Shown here: piece after piece, positions 10,935-17,642 of the stretch
Layout: every line of letters starts with the position of its first letter
Position numbering within the stretch: the stretch's first letter is position 1
NCBI RefSeq assembly: GCF_036195325.1
Contig: NZ_CP108101.1
Span: 1,488,001 to 1,552,000 of the forward strand
Direction of reading: 5' to 3'
Length of the DNA stretch: 64,000 nucleotides
Source: Streptomyces sp. NBC_00234
Lineage (GTDB): Bacteria > Actinomycetota > Actinomycetes > Streptomycetales > Streptomycetaceae
Notes under the pieces: generated by a model
The model's database searches: none
Told to the model about the DNA's origin: nothing
The model's input: the letters and a program-made list of their open reading frames with translations, nothing else
Position numbers and translations under genes: made by a program

Positions 10935-12257
10935 TCAGACGGCCGCCTTCACGCGCTCCGCGGACGGGGCGGCTGCCCTGTCGCGCCGTTCCAGCCTGCC
11001 CGCGGCGAGGGAGCCGACCGCCGTACAGGCGGCGATGGCCACGAGGAGCAGGGCCGCGCCCCAGGAGGCGCCGTTCGCCGCGCCGGTGAGGGACGTGGCG
11101 AGCAGCGGCACGAAGCCGGCCACGACGCCCGCGAGGTTGTACGACATGGCAACGGCGCTGTAGCGGAACGCCTCGGGGAACATGCCGGAGACGACGGCGC
11201 CGATGGGGGCGTACGGAATCGAGAGTGCGCCGATCCCGAGCCCCACACCGAGGTAGACCAGGCCCGGGCGGCCGGTGTCGACGAGCCAGAAGGCCGGGAA
11301 GGCGACGGCCATCGAGACGAGGCCACCGATGGCGCACACCTTCCAGGCGCCGATCCGGTCGGCGATCCGGCCCGCCACGACGAGCACGGCGATCTCGACG
11401 ACGGAGCCGATGACCGTGGCGTTGAGCATCACCGACTTGTCGATGCCCAGCTCGTCGGTGCCGTACGAAATGATGAAGGTGGTCATCAGGAAGAAGCCGC
11501 CCACACCCAGCAGCGCGGCGCCGATGCCGACGATCATGCGGCCCCAGGTGCGGCGGAACGCCTCGATCAGCGGGGCGGGCTTGGGACCGTTCTTCTCCGC
11601 GTCGGCGAGCATGGCGTGGAAGACCGGGGACTCCTCGATGCGCAGCCGCATGTAGAGCGCGAAGCCGAGCAGCGGGAACGCGGCGAGGAACGGCAGACGC
11701 CAGCCCCAGGAGTAGAAGTCCTCGTCCGGCAGCAGGCCGACGAGGGCGAAGGCGCCGGAGGAGATCAGGGTGCCGACGGGCGAGCCGAGCTGCGGGATCG
11801 AGGAGTAGCTGCCGTGCTTCTCCTTCGGCGTGTGCTCCAGCGTGAGCAGCATGGCCCCGCTCCACTCGCCGCCGACCGAGATGCCCTGGAGGAAGCGGAG
11901 GAGGGCCAGGAGTATCGGGGCCCAGATGCCGATGGTGCCGTAGCTGGGCAGCAGGCCGATGCAGCCGGTGGTGACGCCCATCATCACGACGGTGATGATC
12001 AGGGCGACCTTGCGGCCGTAGCGGTCACCGATGTGTCCGAAAACGGCTGCTCCGATGGGACGGGCGACGAAGCCCACCGCGAAGGTCACGAAGGACGCGA
12101 TGGTGCCCACGGTCGGGTCCAGCTCGGGGAAGAAGAGCCGGTTGAAGACCAGGGCGGCGGCGGTGCCGTAGAGGAAGTAGTCGTACCACTCCAGGGCTGT
12201 ACCGGTGAAGGCGGCGGTCAGCAGCCGCCGGATGTCCTTGATGTCGGGCGAGCTCAC
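10935..12257 (-). CDS. MFS transporter, metabolite:H+ symporter (MHS) type
   Basis: The 440-residue protein has about 12 transmembrane segments and MHS-family landmarks: GTALEWYDYFLYGTAAALVF near the start, GHIGDRYGRKVAL after helix 2, and LRFLQGISVGGEWSGAMLL. Members take up dicarboxylates, shikimate, betaine and similar solutes with protons. It is the last gene of a leftward operon: its ATG overlaps the amidohydrolase stop by 4 bases. It therefore probably imports the substrate, or a product, of the urease-like/amidohydrolase enzymes encoded just upstream. The substrate is not determined. Confidence 0.9.
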   Translation of the reverse strand: MSSPDIKDIRRLLTAAFTGTALEWYDYFLYGTAAALVFNRLFFPELDPTVGTIASFVTFAVGFVARPIGAAVFGHIGDRYGRKVALIITVVMMGVTTGCIGLLPSYGTIGIWAPILLALLRFLQGISVGGEWSGAMLLTLEHTPKEKHGSYSSIPQLGSPVGTLISSGAFALVGLLPDEDFYSWGWRLPFLAAFPLLGFALYMRLRIEESPVFHAMLADAEKNGPKPAPLIEAFRRTWGRMIVGIGAALLGVGGFFLMTTFIISYGTDELGIDKSVMLNATVIGSVVEIAVLVVAGRIADRIGAWKVCAIGGLVSMAVAFPAFWLVDTGRPGLVYLGVGLGIGALSIPYAPIGAVVSGMFPEAFRYSAVAMSYNLAGVVAGFVPLLATSLTGAANGASWGAALLLVAIAACTAVGSLAAGRLERRDRAAAPSAERVKAAV

Positions 12258-13996
12258 ACGTTCTCCTGGGGACGGAGGGCCTGGTGGCCTTGAGGGGACG
12301 GGGGAACAGGCGGTGCGGGGGTACGGGGGGCGAGCGGGGTCGCGAGGCCGTGCGGATCGTGGGCGGGGTCGCCGCCCACGACGGTCGCGAGGACCTGGAT
12401 GGCGCCGATCCGGTCCGGATCGGTACGCAGCGGGTCGGCGTCCAGGACGGTGAGGTCGGCGAGGTATCCGGGGGCGAGCCGGCCCTTGCGGCCGGCGAAG
12501 CCGGTGGCCCGGGCCGAGCCGTCGGTCCAGGCACGCAGCGCGTCGAGGGCCGGGACCCGCTCCTCGGGGCCGTAGGCGGCGCCCGAGGCGGTGAGCCGCT
12601 GGACCATGGCCTGGATCGCGGGCAGGGGTGCGCCCGGTGCGACGGGCCGGTCGGAACTGCCGGGGACGGGCAGCCCGAGGTCGAGGAGCGAACGCAGCCG
12701 GTAGGACCAGGCGGTGCGCTCGGGGCCCAGGGACGCGGCCATCGCGTCGCCGAAGGCCGACAGGAAGTTGTGCTGCGGTACGGGGACGGCGCCCAGCGCG
12801 GCGAACCGGCGGAGCTGGTCGGGGCGGACGACACCGGCGTGCTCGACGCGGTGCCGGACTCCGGGGCGCGGCAGCTCGTGCTGGGCGCGCTCGAAGGCGT
12901 CCAGGGCCAGGTCGACGGCCCGGTCGCCGATGGCGTGGGCGGCCACGGTCCAGCCGGCGCGGTGGGCGGCGACCACTGTCTCGGTCATCGCGTCCGCGTC
13001 GTTCTGGAAGTAGCCGGTGGGGTTCTGCGCCTCGGCCTCGTTGTGCGGGCAGCCGCAGAAGGGTTCGCTGACCGCGGCGGTGCGCCCGAGGAGCGAGCCG
13101 TCGAGGAAGATCTTGACGGGGCCCAGGGAGAGCAGGTCGTCGCCGAAGCCGGTGCGCATCCCGAGGTCCAGGCCGAAGTCGATGGGGTCGTCGGCGTGCG
13201 AGACGAGCGGGTGCAGGACGTCGGAGGCCGCCATCAGCTGGGCGCGGGCGTGCAGACGGCCGGTCTCGCGGGCCAGCTGGTAGGCGGCGAGCTCGACCGG
13301 GGTGTGGCCGATCCAGCCGCCGCCGATGCCGGCTTCCGTGAAGCTGGTGATGCCCTCGGTGAGGTAGTGCCGGGTGGCCGCGTCCACCGCGTCGGCGACG
13401 GTCTCGACGGGGTACGGCAGGACGTGCCGCTGCACCAGCCGCTGGGCGGTCTCCTCCAGCAGCCCGTCGGGCCGCCCGTGCTCGTCCCGCGAGACGACCC
13501 CGCCGTCCGGGTCGGTGAAGGAGGGGTCCAGGACGCCCGCGAGGCGCAGGACCGGGGTGCTGACGACGCAGGCGTGCCCGGAGGTGTGCTTCAGCCAGAC
13601 GGGGCGCCCGCCCGCGGCCCGGTCGAGGGCGTCCCGGTGCGGATACCGCCCGCCGGTCCGGTTGTGGTCGAGTCCGGCGCCGATCACCCAGGCGTCCTCG
13701 GGCAGCGTGGCGGCGTACGCGGCGACGGCGTCGTACACCTCCTCGACCGTGCGGGCCGTGGAGACGTCGAGCTGGGTGAGCGTGAGGCCGAACCAGGCGG
13801 TGTGGCAGTGGGCGTCGTTGAAGCCGGGCACCACCGTGGCTCCGCCCGCGTCGACGACCCGGTGGGCGGGGAGGTGCTCGACCTCCTCGTCGAGTCCGAC
13901 GATCCGGCCGTGCAGCACGCCGAGCGTGCGGGCGGTGGGCCGGGTGTCGTCGAGGGTCAGGATGCGGGCGTCGCGGATCAGCAGGTCGAGTTTCAC
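12254..13996 (-). CDS. YtcJ-like amidohydrolase
   Basis: The 580-residue product belongs to the amidohydrolase-3/YtcJ group. It has the metal motif VVPGFNDAHCHTAWFG near residue 60, GITSFTEAGIGG, VKIFLDGSLLGRTAAVSEPF, the downstream metal histidines (VAAHAIGDRAVDLAL, RHRVEHAG) and the C-terminal composite-domain strand LAPGYLADLTVLDADPL. Such enzymes hydrolyse C-N bonds in amides, ureas or cyclic imides. It starts 10 bases after the urease-like alpha gene and overlaps the MFS gene by 4 bases, so all are one transcript. Its real substrate is unknown; context points to a nitrogen compound. Confidence 0.88.
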   Translation of the reverse strand: MKLDLLIRDARILTLDDTRPTARTLGVLHGRIVGLDEEVEHLPAHRVVDAGGATVVPGFNDAHCHTAWFGLTLTQLDVSTARTVEEVYDAVAAYAATLPEDAWVIGAGLDHNRTGGRYPHRDALDRAAGGRPVWLKHTSGHACVVSTPVLRLAGVLDPSFTDPDGGVVSRDEHGRPDGLLEETAQRLVQRHVLPYPVETVADAVDAATRHYLTEGITSFTEAGIGGGWIGHTPVELAAYQLARETGRLHARAQLMAASDVLHPLVSHADDPIDFGLDLGMRTGFGDDLLSLGPVKIFLDGSLLGRTAAVSEPFCGCPHNEAEAQNPTGYFQNDADAMTETVVAAHRAGWTVAAHAIGDRAVDLALDAFERAQHELPRPGVRHRVEHAGVVRPDQLRRFAALGAVPVPQHNFLSAFGDAMAASLGPERTAWSYRLRSLLDLGLPVPGSSDRPVAPGAPLPAIQAMVQRLTASGAAYGPEERVPALDALRAWTDGSARATGFAGRKGRLAPGYLADLTVLDADPLRTDPDRIGAIQVLATVVGGDPAHDPHGLATPLAPRTPAPPVPPSPQGHQALRPQENV

Positions 13997-14006
13997 GGGG
14001 CGGCTC

Positions 14007-15692
14007 TCAGGCGAGGTGGTGCAGCTGGGCCAGCGGCACGGCGTGGGCGGGTGCGGTACCGGTGGGGACGCCGTCGACGAGGACGGGCGCCGGTTCGCGG
14101 GGCACCACGACCCGCGGCGTCGCGGTGTTGTGGAGCATGTCGGCCCGGGTGAGGCCGCGGGAGCCGCGGATCGCCGCGTACGTGAGCCCCTTGGGCAGGG
14201 CCGCGCGGGCGGCGCGGTCCTCCAGTGCGGCCTGCGAGACGAAGACGCGGGAGAGCCGCGCGGGTGCCTGGCCGAGTGCGCCGAAGTAGGGCCGGTACGT
14301 ACGGGGCTGGGTCAGCCGGGTCGAACCGGAACCCGATCCGCTGTTGCCCCAGGCCACGAATCCCGCCTTGATGACCAGTTCTGGCTTGGAACCGAAGTAG
14401 GCGGGGTGCCAGAGCACCAGGTCGGCGAGGCGCCCCACCTGTGCGGTGCCGACCTCGTGCGCGAGGCCGTGGGCGATCGCCGGATTGAGGGTGATCTTGG
14501 CGAGGTAGCGCAGCGCCCGCTCGTTGGCGCGGTGCCCGACACCGCCCTGCCCGTTGGCGAGTGCCTGGAGGTGGGCGAGCTGCCAGGTGCGGCGTACGGT
14601 CTCGGCGATCCGGCCCATGCCCATGGAGTCGGAGTTGACGATGGAGATCGCCCCGAGGTCGTGCAGGGCGTTCTCGGCGGCGATGGCGTGGGCCCGGATG
14701 CGGCCCTTGGAGATCTCCACATCGCTGGCGGAGTGGTGGTTCTGCCGGTGCACGGTCATCGTCATCGGGAAGAGTTCGCCGACGGTGTTCGGGGTGTACG
14801 GGATCGTCGGCGTCGTCGAGGACGGCAGGATGTTCGGCTCGGAGAGGATCTCCAGCAGATCGGGATGACCCCCGCCGCCCTCCACGTGGTAGGCGTGCAC
14901 GGTCCGGCCCCGGGTCGAGCCGATGGTGTCGCGCAGGTAGCCGGACTCGTTCATCGAGTCGGTGTGCAGGGCCACCGGGAGATCGGCGGCCTCCGCGGTG
15001 TCGAGGCAGTTGTCGATGATGCGCGGGGTGGCCCCGAAGTCCTCGTGGATCTTGAAGCCGCCCGCCCCGGCGAGCACGGACTCGTCGAGGAGGGTGCGGG
15101 AGCTGGACGAGCCGCGCGCCAGGAACGCGATGTTGAGCGGGGTGCCCTGCCAGGAGCTCATCAGCGTGTGCAGATTGTGCGCCGGGTTGCAGCCGATCTC
15201 CCAGACACCGCCGAGGCCCATGCCGACGAGCGTGGTCACTCCGGCGGCGAGTGCCGCGGGGGCCACGTCGGGAGAGGAGAGGTGGACATGGCTGTCGACG
15301 ATTCCGGGGGTGGCGATCAGGCCCTCGCCGGGGACGACCGAGGTGTGCGAGTCGATGGCGTACTCGACGGGCATGATGTCGGGGTTCCCGACGCCGCCGA
15401 CCGAGACGATGCGGCCGTCCTTGATGCCGATGTCGGTCTTGCGGATCCCGAGGACCGGGTCCATGAGCACGACCCCGGCGACCACCATGTCCAGGGCGGA
15501 GTCCCGGTCGGAGCGGGGCGAGGCCAGCAGCCCGTCGCGCACGGTCTTGCCGCAGCCGCCGAGCAGTTCGTCACCGGGCGTGCCGTCGTCCGCCTCGACC
15601 TCGACCCACAGCTCGGTGTCGCCGAGCCGGATGCGGTCGCCGGTCGTGGGTCCGTACAGAGCGTTGTACGTACGTCGGTCGATGCTGGTCAT
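14007..15692 (-). CDS. ureC: Divergent urease-like alpha subunit
   Basis: The 561-residue protein aligns by eye with UreC. Nickel-site residues are present: H135/H137 (IVDSHVH), K214 for carbamylation ([12 protein letters not shown]), H243 ([12 protein letters not shown]), H269 (YHVEGGGGH) and D355 (NSDSMGMGR). Two conserved segments are not. The GGGTGPA-type loop after GVTT is replaced by [20 protein letters not shown]. The active-site flap, canonically ..MVCHHL.., reads [13 protein letters not shown], so flap Cys (Cys319 in Klebsiella) is Asn318 and about four residues are lost. No ureD/E/F/G accessory genes are in the window. It overlaps the gamma-beta gene by 4 bases. It may not be a true urease. 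Confidence 0.85.
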
Positions 15693-16297
15693 GCGCGCTC
15701 CTCGGACGGTGCGTGGTGCGGGTGGCGGGAGAGGGGGACCAGCGAGACCTCGCGGGACTCCCCCGGCTCGAAGGCCAGCGCGGTGCCGGCCGCGACGTCG
15801 AGCCGCAGACCCCGCGCCGCCGTCCGGTCGAGCTCCAGGGCCTCGTTCACCTCGTGCAGCGGATAGTGCGAGGAGACGAACACCGTACGGTCACCGGTGT
15901 TGCGGACGGTGAGGGTGGTGCGGGTGCGCCCCTCGTTGATCAGCACCGGGTCGGGGGCGGTCCGTACGGCTCCGGGGGCCGACGCCGGTGTGCCCGCGCC
16001 GATCGGTCGGTCGACGGCGACGAGCGCGGTGCCGCTCGGGAAGAGCGCTTCGACCTGGACGGTGGTGACGATGTCCGGGACACCCTCCATCACGTCGGCC
16101 TCGGTGAGCACGGAGCGGCCCACCTCGATGACCTCGTCGAGGGAGAGCCCGTCCCAGGCGGCTTCCAGCACCTCGTCGCAGATCAGGGCGATGGCCTCCG
16201 GCGTGTTGAGCCGTCGTCCGCGCGCCCTGCGGCGGCGGGCCAGTTCGGCAACGGTGAACAGTTGGAGACGCTCCTGCTCGCGCGGCGTCAGATGCAC
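15689..16297 (-). CDS. ureAB: Fused urease-like gamma-beta subunit
   Basis: The 202-residue protein joins a urease gamma domain (~1-100, [34 protein letters not shown]) to a beta domain (~105-202, [32 protein letters not shown]). The beta part is altered: the usual SHYHFFEVN reads SHYPLHEVN, and the C-terminal tail after the VSLVPL strand lacks the usual GGxR..GF sequence. GTG 16297 is chosen because GGGAGG lies 8 bases upstream and homologues begin just here; an in-frame ATG at 16393 would add 32 unlike residues. It is first in the operon and divergent from the PucR-like gene. Confidence 0.85.
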
Positions 16298-16407
16298 TGC
16301 CAGGACCTCCCGGAGGAAACGGAACCGCATGCGATGTGCGGGATCGCCCCAGCTTCGAGGGCAACGAGCACAAATCCAACGTCGAAACATCACCCGTACA
16401 GCCCCTT

Positions 16408-16438
16408 ACATTGGTCACATGCACACTCCGGTGACCAA
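16408..16438 (+). promoter_or_regulatory. Promoter and inverted-repeat operator straddling the PucR-type start codon
   Basis: TACATT (16408-16413) is a -10-like hexamer ending 5 bases before the ATG at 16419, which has no ribosome site, so the mRNA is probably leaderless. An exact 8-bp inverted repeat, TTGGTCAC (16411-16418) and GTGACCAA (16431-16438), has a 12-base spacer and encloses the start codon. A regulator bound here would block its own transcription start and early elongation. Autoregulation is inferred. Confidence 0.5.
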
Positions 16439-17642
16439 TTTCCCTCCTCCCTCGCGTCGGATCGCGGAGCTGGCGGGCCAGTGCCTGGACAACATCGACG
16501 GGCTGATCGGCCAGTGGATGGAGATGATCAACCCGGTGCGCAGCGCCTACGCGGAGCGGGTGCCGGACGCCGACTTCCGCAGTTCGGCCTGGCAGGCGTT
16601 CGAACTGCTGCTGCGCACGGTGGCGCAGCTGCCCGTCCCCGCCCACATCGCCGGGGTCTCGGAACGGGTCGGTGAACAGCGCGCCCGTCAGGGCGTCCCG
16701 CTCGACGCCCTGCTGGAGGCGGCGAGGCTGGACTTCCGCGTGGTCTGGGCGGCGCTGGTTCAGCGGGCCGACGAGGCGGACATGGCGGATCTCGTGACGT
16801 CCGCGTACCACGTGTGGGAGGCCGTCGAGAGCCATGTCACCGGCATCATGACCGCGTACCAGCGCACGGTCCTGGAGATGGGCCGGCGCCAGGAGGACGA
16901 GCGGAGGATGTGGTTCTCCCGGCTCCTGGAGAGCGAGGGCCGCAATCCGACGGTGGTACGCGACGCGGCGCTGGCCCTGGGTTTCGGGAGCGCGGGAGAC
17001 TTCCTGTGCGCCGCCGCTCCGGCGGCGGAGGGCTCGGGACTGCACAGGGCGGCGACGGCGCTGCGGGCCGCGGGCGCGCCGGTGCAGTACCAGGCGGTCG
17101 GCGGGGACGCGGTGCTCGTGGTGGAGCTGGGCGGGCGGACTACCTGGCAGTCGGTGCTGGTCCGTCTCGCGTCCACGCCCTGCGGGGTGTCACCGCGGGC
17201 GGGCGGACTGGCGGCGGTGCCGAGGGCCGCCGTACTGGCCATCGCGACCGCGCAGATGCTGCCGCCGGACGCGCTGGCCCCGCGGCTGCTGGAGGACAGC
17301 TGGCTCGACGTCCTGGTGCGGCGGGCCGGGGACTTCGGTGCGGACCTGGCCACCGACGTACTGGGCGGCCTCGACGCCCCGGGCGTCTCCGCCTCGGAGC
17401 GGGCGCGCCTGCTGGAGACCGTCACGGTGCATCTGCAGGGCAGCGGCTCCATCGCGGACACGGCGACCGCGCTCTACTGCCACCGCAACACGGTCCAGCA
17501 CCGGTTCGCCCGCTTCCACGAGCTGACCGGCCGCGATGTACGGCGCCCGGACGACGCGGCACTGGTGGCGGTGGCCCTGCGGGCGCGTGGCATCGAGGAC
17601 CAGGCGGGACGCGGAGGCGCCTCCGCCACGCTCAGGGCCTAG
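16419..17642 (+). CDS. PucR/CdaR-type transcriptional regulator
   Basis: The 407-residue protein ends in the PucR C-terminal helix-turn-helix ([20 protein letters not shown], then [20 protein letters not shown]). Its N-terminal ~170 residues are helical ([20 protein letters not shown]) and a GGDEF-related central region follows. PucR-type regulators often activate purine, allantoin or other nitrogen-catabolic genes. It is divergent from the urease-like operon across a 121-base gap, which makes that operon its likely target. ATG 16419 is chosen for the promoter position and the typical N-terminus; the frame is open further upstream but without credible signals. Confidence 0.85.

Follow-up and report, generated by a model that had tools for sequence, protein, structure and literature searches.

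The operon and its proteins

The window, by which we mean the whole stretch of 64,000 nucleotides of Streptomyces sp. NBC_00234 that was analysed, carries on its minus strand a urease-like gene pair, an Amidohydro_3 family hydrolase gene and a symporter gene, with a regulator gene diverging from them (Table 1). Transcription runs from ureAB through ureC and the Amidohydro_3 gene to the MHS gene, and the successive junctions, a 4-bp overlap, a 10-bp gap and a further 4-bp overlap, are spaced as in a coupled operon. A first-pass annotation of this DNA had named an amidohydrolase and an MHS transporter as the neighbours of the urease-like genes, and both genes were verified. The window's own operon contains neither a TPP enzyme nor an aldehyde dehydrogenase gene.

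Table 1. Genes of the urease-like operon and its divergent regulator (window coordinates)
Feature	Coordinates	Strand	Basis or remark
ureC-like catalytic subunit, 561 aa	14007..15692	-	ORFs and domain search
Fused UreA-UreB-like subunit, GTG start	15689..16297	-	4-bp overlap with ureC
Amidohydro_3 family metal-dependent hydrolase	12254..13996	-	domain search
MHS-type MFS symporter	10935..12257	-	4-bp overlap with Amidohydro_3 gene
Divergent regulator, PucR C-terminal HTH (HTH_30)	16419..17642	+	domain search

Urease_gamma and Urease_beta domains were detected in the UreAB-like protein, and the UreC-like protein matches Urease_alpha (PF00449, 126.9 bits) and Amidohydro_1 (PF01979, 151.2 bits) above their gathering scores. 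The latter protein scores below the cut-off of the urease equivalog TIGR01792 (565.7 bits against 680) and passes the broader urease subfamily model NF009686 (684.8 bits, cut-off 354). Its structure model has a clear fold (pTM 0.83, mean pLDDT 73), which Foldseek matches to that of canonical Klebsiella aerogenes UreABC (1EJW and related entries, TM 0.89 for the model). Also shared with that enzyme are the division into three parts, every metal ligand and the Lys whose urease counterpart is carbamylated. The loops that differ from urease were modelled with a confidence too low for reading active-site geometry.

The cassette spanning 10935-17642 lies, both in the window and at a second locus (L033), between genes that we take to be rplT and an rRNA methyltransferase gene and a presumed histidine kinase gene, with a putative pheS next in the L033 flank. 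Since the surroundings differ at many other loci, the cassette seems to move.

Active-site residues and the beta segment

The ten metal and catalytic residues of K. aerogenes urease (H134, H136, K217, H219, D221, H246, H272, H320, R336 and D360) are all conserved in the window UreC and do not vary in any of the 70 rows of its clade, a count that includes at least one duplicate, L168 being a repeat assembly of L060. The partial canonical rows L128 and L141 entered the residue counts and were left out of both trees described below. The four His, the Lys and the Asp of the binuclear site are present throughout the clade (70/70), and the earlier statement that the metal ligands and the carbamylated Lys are kept appears sound, as judged from the conservation of the ligands and of the Lys217 position in the alignment.

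The protein departs from K. aerogenes urease at positions 319, 321 and 363 and in the stretch 163-171, all of which we take to line the urea pocket. The loop 163-171 is changed in 70/70 rows, in agreement with the first-pass report of an altered GGGTGPA loop; four residues are deleted here, and a different stretch of 14 residues stands in place of that motif. The position of Ala363 is Gly in all 70 rows (Gly358 in the window protein), and that of His321 is Arg in 65 and Lys in 5. The same annotation had reported an Asn in place of the flap Cys and a shortened flap; both readings were rejected as alignment slips, and the arguments built on them fail, as a gapless alignment pairs Cys319 with Val314 (Val in 70/70 rows), followed by His315 and Arg316, with no deletion in the flap. 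Cys319 of the mobile flap is usual in nickel urease and is not essential, and K. aerogenes urease carrying C319A stays active.

In the beta part of the window UreAB the HFFE-type segment reads HYPLHE, and the distance from this motif to the C terminus has a clade median of 54 residues, compared with 67 for a single canonical protein from the window genome; an altered segment and a lost tail had been described at first pass, and the segment is indeed changed and the tail shorter. An early-branching member from an Acidimicrobiaceae MAG (L088) retains HYHFFE together with a long beta tail, and His occupies the Pro position of the HYPLHE-type segment in 2 of 65 rows, so that the change in the beta part was probably a later event.

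Fused ureAB and ureC genes with Gly at the Ala363 position were also seen in the proteobacterial loci L095, L097, L103, L105 and L106. There a UreG gene follows directly, and the five sequences cluster with L107, L108 and L129, apart from most canonical ureases.

Relatives, accessory genes and neighbouring genes

Of 392 Streptomyces genomes, 13 have window orthologues, among them the genome of the window itself. A scan of named genomes, of which the best 80 of 95 relatives were taken, gave 78 distinct loci, 64 of them window-type; the genes around the loci were called from ORFs by custom scripts rather than by a gene finder. Among these best 80 of 95, window-type members come from Streptomyces, Microbispora, Streptosporangium, Sphaerisporangium, Nonomuraea, Saccharopolyspora, Pseudonocardia, Actinomycetospora and Mobilicoccus and from several actinobacterial MAGs. 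A UreC phylogeny had been proposed as a check on whether the protein forms a separate clade, and it does: in a tree of 116 rows built by a quick method, a branch with support 100 separates the 65 window-type rows from the rest, canonical ureases included, and 14 rows of a second accessory-less type stand on their own branch with support 99. A 72-row tree gives the same groupings. In both trees the window type, the second type and the canonical sequences with all others meet at one node, and the midpoint root serves display only; a claim that the two accessory-less types are sister groups depends on the root and was dropped. Pairwise dN/dS of ureC ranges from 0.043 to 0.180 over 11 pairs, by which measure the window-type gene evolves under purifying selection. 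The window type is a real conserved enzyme group within the urease superfamily.

The locus had been described as lacking accessory genes, and this extends to its relatives: UreD, UreF and UreG queries matched at 0 of 64 loci, at 60 and at 90 bits, within flanks of at most 10 kb and in some cases much shorter. Their unlinked state is a further difference from the K. aerogenes operon. The window genome itself has four full UreC genes with pairwise identities of 43.6-48.7%, apart from the canonical pair at 70.5%. A canonical ure operon elsewhere in the genome had been suggested as something to look for, and canonical loci were found at 1.10 and 7.94 Mb, each with UreD and UreG nearby over cut-off; the second (L011:10172-12958) encodes a UreC with long insertions and a tree branch of 0.52. 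The first-pass annotation held that its reading would fall to urease activity that depends on a complete accessory set elsewhere and has kinetics like those of normal urease. Accessory genes elsewhere in the genome do exist, at these two loci, and the rest of that statement concerns measured activity.

UreG was then sought genome-wide in 62 genome entries, comprising the 12 other Streptomyces with an orthologue and the genomes of 50 of the 64 loci; the coordinates found were identical for the pairs G145/G411, G233/G397 and G389/G440. It scored over cut-off in 45 of the 62, so that many hosts probably own a canonical urease too. The remaining 17 entries, which represent 16 distinct genomes (G145 and G411 are one assembly), gave no UreG over cut-off: 12 had no match and 5 had weak ones. 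UreD was likewise absent from all 17 (positive controls 4/4), and no other UreC was found in them, the match in G433 being split into two adjacent pieces. Several of these genomes are MAGs or drafts; one, the closed-like G069, consists of two contigs and has a completeness rating of 100%. Pairs whose members both come from genomes lacking UreD and UreG have dN/dS of 0.178 (L085-L081) and 0.115 (L088-L089). As the sole UreC of such genomes, under low dN/dS, the window-type enzyme is kept without UreD or UreG, and these 17 entries (16 distinct) support the view that it does not depend on the nickel accessory system. The operon of G069 comprises ureAB, ureC, MHS, a TPP enzyme, an aldehyde dehydrogenase and PucR; it has neither a deiminase nor Amidohydro_3, which counts against a deiminase pairing.

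Around the 64 window-type loci ureAB is universal (64/64), and MHS (52/64), PucR (48/64) and Amidohydro_3 (46/64) are frequent. Five loci, all of them in Nonomuraea, carry a member of the DDAH/arginine-deiminase family, for instance L069:2740-3735. This DDAH-like gene aligns with DDAH structures through to the C-terminal Cys; its aligned residues are presumably catalytic. Amidohydro_3 and the DDAH-like gene never occur together in the 64 loci, two of the five DDAH contigs ending less than 2 kb downstream, and 13 of the 64, some on short contigs, have neither. The nearest structures in a fold search with Amidohydro_3 are uncharacterised hydrolases, so a deiminase role for this protein is a guess from the neighbour swap. 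TPP enzymes lie near 22 of the 64 loci and aldehyde dehydrogenases near 15, some of them remote. Four aldehyde dehydrogenases from window-type neighbourhoods were scanned: those of L042, L063 and L164 score above the cut-off of the aminobutyraldehyde dehydrogenase subfamily, and that of L065 lies below it (492 versus 615 bits). All three TPP enzymes scanned fall far under the 2-ketoarginine decarboxylase cut-off (209-236 versus 500 bits), and the three class III aminotransferases scanned reach the cut-off of none of the models listed; a naming after the arginine transaminase pathway was dropped for this reason.

Some individual loci have further neighbours. At L063:4945-7693 a urea-ABC-like substrate-binding protein gene, below cut-off, and the aminobutyraldehyde dehydrogenase gene both adjoin the window-type locus. 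An amidase-signature gene is near L089, and a CoA-transferase with a GntP permease is found at L079 and L087. An ornithine carbamoyltransferase gene lies near the early-branching Acidimicrobiaceae MAG members (L088:3526-4428 and L089:12472-13389). In a Pseudonocardiaceae MAG (L057:4846-13237) the window-type ureABC stands by genes for a terpene synthase, a NUDIX protein, an aminotransferase and an FAD oxidase, surroundings that resemble a biosynthetic cluster.

The second accessory-less type is represented in the window genome at 5.75 Mb (L010:7027-10503), where ureAB-ureC is directly followed by a gene of the agmatine deiminase family; 245 of the 392 Streptomyces genomes have this type. The AguA-like gene directly adjoins the second-type genes at 7/7 named loci and at 20/20 sampled loci, the latter hand-picked among the matches listed and not random. 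At L010 its product scores 293.5 bits, below the AguA cut-off of 381.8. Outside Streptomyces five second-type loci were examined. At one of these, L172, the neighbour is 54% identical to that of L010 and scores 293.4 bits, under the same cut-off. At L174, in another family, the neighbour exceeds the AguA cut-off (518 versus 381.8 bits), in opposite orientation and about 0.5 kb away. At the three loci L169-L171, in a third family, an AguA-like gene was not found; an ABC transporter adjoins these, and the ATPase of L169, the only one scanned, is over the polyamine transporter subfamily cut-off. Over its family cut-off AguA is found in 3 of 392 Streptomyces genomes (G055, G096 and G384), none of which belongs to the 245. 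An E-value limit of 1e-90 returned 115 of 392; this limit cut through the AguA score range, so a co-occurrence analysis was abandoned in favour of adjacency at the sampled loci. AguB exceeded its cut-off in none of the 392 genomes. Residue 321 is Asp in 27 of 28 Streptomyces rows of the second type and Gly in five rows outside the genus. A rule by which Arg or Lys at this flap position would mark acids and Asp would mark amines was at first favoured and then weakened by these Gly residues.

Possible function and alternatives

The reading we favour, and hold to be only a little short of an even chance, is that the window ureAB-ureC encodes a urease-fold hydrolase of N-substituted ureas that is independent of UreD and UreG and paired with a guanidino deiminase. 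Mono-substituted ureas (R-NH-CO-NH2) would have replaced urea as the substrates of such an enzyme. A deiminase would convert a guanidino compound to a ureido compound and ammonia, the candidates being Amidohydro_3 in the window, the DDAH-like protein in some Nonomuraea and the agmatine-deiminase-family enzyme beside the second type; the urease-like protein would then release the free amine, CO2 and ammonia from the ureido group at its binuclear site. We infer that this site binds metal with the carbamylated Lys kept and that it matures without UreD or UreG. For the window type the probable substrate is a ureido acid that the operon imports or produces; 4-ureidobutyrate, which would give GABA, is one example. 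A ureido acid is suggested by Arg or Lys at position 321, by the aminobutyraldehyde dehydrogenase of relatives and by the MHS symporter. The charge part of this argument is weak because of the Gly found there in the second type outside Streptomyces, and 4-ureidobutyrate serves as an example only, the TPP enzyme and the aminotransferases being under their cut-offs. The first-pass suggestion of another small amide or ureide as substrate fits the separate clade, the changed loop and flap and the neighbours from guanidino deiminase families in relatives. Its alternative, use of some metal besides nickel, is conjectural.

AguB, the N-carbamoylputrescine amidohydrolase, has a fold unrelated to that of urease. 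The reaction proposed here, in which a ureido group yields an amine together with CO2 and ammonia, would be like the one given for AguB in part of PMC9397018. A wider and more speculative version, possible but distinctly the less probable, is that both accessory-less clades are substituted-urea hydrolases that mature without UreDEFG and complete a two-step dismantling of guanidino compounds, with the second type as the N-carbamoylputrescine hydrolase so far missing from Streptomyces and the window type as a hydrolase of ureido acids such as 4-ureidobutyrate. The AguA-like gene lying below its cut-off and the loss of the sister-group claim have lowered our confidence in the substituted-urea reading and in this wider version.

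The counterpart of SCO5525-5526 in the window genome is probably L010. Fused ure(AB)C without accessory genes has already been published for Streptomyces coelicolor and S. avermitilis (in passages of PMC2492869), and the window genes resemble SCO5525-5526 in combining fused ureAB with ureC and no accessory genes. Proteins of the L010 type, however, form a separate clade and stand by an agmatine-deiminase-family gene rather than by Amidohydro_3 and MHS. Excerpts of PMC3293853 count SCO5525-5526 as urea-utilizing genes and SCO5527 as a homologue from the arginine decarboxylase (ADC) pathway. According to the same paper every Pseudomonas gene of that pathway has a homologue in S. coelicolor, so that AguB homologues below cut-off may exist in Streptomyces. 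In the portions of open-licence literature consulted, no non-urea substrate for accessory-less actinobacterial ureABC was found.

An accessory-independent true urease with a different metal, on the model of the Helicobacter mustelae iron urease UreA2B2, would account for the conservation of every metal ligand and for the 17 genome entries without UreD and without UreG over cut-off, and we consider it unlikely. Passages of PMC6737895 describe the Helicobacter iron urease as needing no accessory proteins (the enzyme is also treated in part of PMC11541087), and its small subunits are fused as here (3QGA). Structures of K. aerogenes C319 variants have been solved, a point on the same side as the activity of C319A. 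Against this reading, the pocket loop is replaced and A363 is Gly in 70/70 rows, the operon partners are a hydrolase (46/64) and an MHS transporter (52/64), a urea-ABC-like binding protein was seen, below cut-off, at the one locus L063, and UreG is present in 45 of 62 genome entries. The substrate of UreA2B2 is urea, and in sequence the window protein is no closer to that enzyme than to other ureases. An ordinary nickel isozyme matured in trans by the accessory proteins of a canonical operon is, in our estimate, more improbable; two UreD and two UreG over cut-off in the window genome and the same 45 of 62 would provide for it, whereas the 17 entries (16 distinct) with a sole UreC, no UreD and no UreG over cut-off, one of them 100% complete in two contigs, and the dN/dS of 0.178 and 0.115 between members from such genomes speak against it.

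A urease-fold amidase that acts on some other small amide taken up by the MHS symporter, with no relation to guanidino compounds, is an explanation to which we also give rather low weight. Its operon partner Amidohydro_3 has no assigned substrate, and the neighbours at 13 of 64 loci are variable, including the amidase-signature gene and the CoA-transferase with GntP mentioned above; against this, genes of guanidino deiminase families adjoin members of two separate clades. That the protein is a degenerate or non-catalytic paralogue is highly improbable: the short beta tail and changed HFFE-type segment of most members could be so read, but all metal and catalytic residues are invariant in 70/70 rows and dN/dS is 0.043-0.180. 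The window-type proteins may well be substituted-urea hydrolases independent of UreD and UreG.

If the substituted-urea reading is true, predictions of urea use in actinobacteria are inflated, since such genes are counted as urease, and a missing step in polyamine or arginine breakdown may be filled. It would also mean that the urease fold and its metal site can serve non-urea substrates without nickel chaperones. A urease-type site that assembles without UreD and UreG would offer a direct test of which features of urease demand chaperones.
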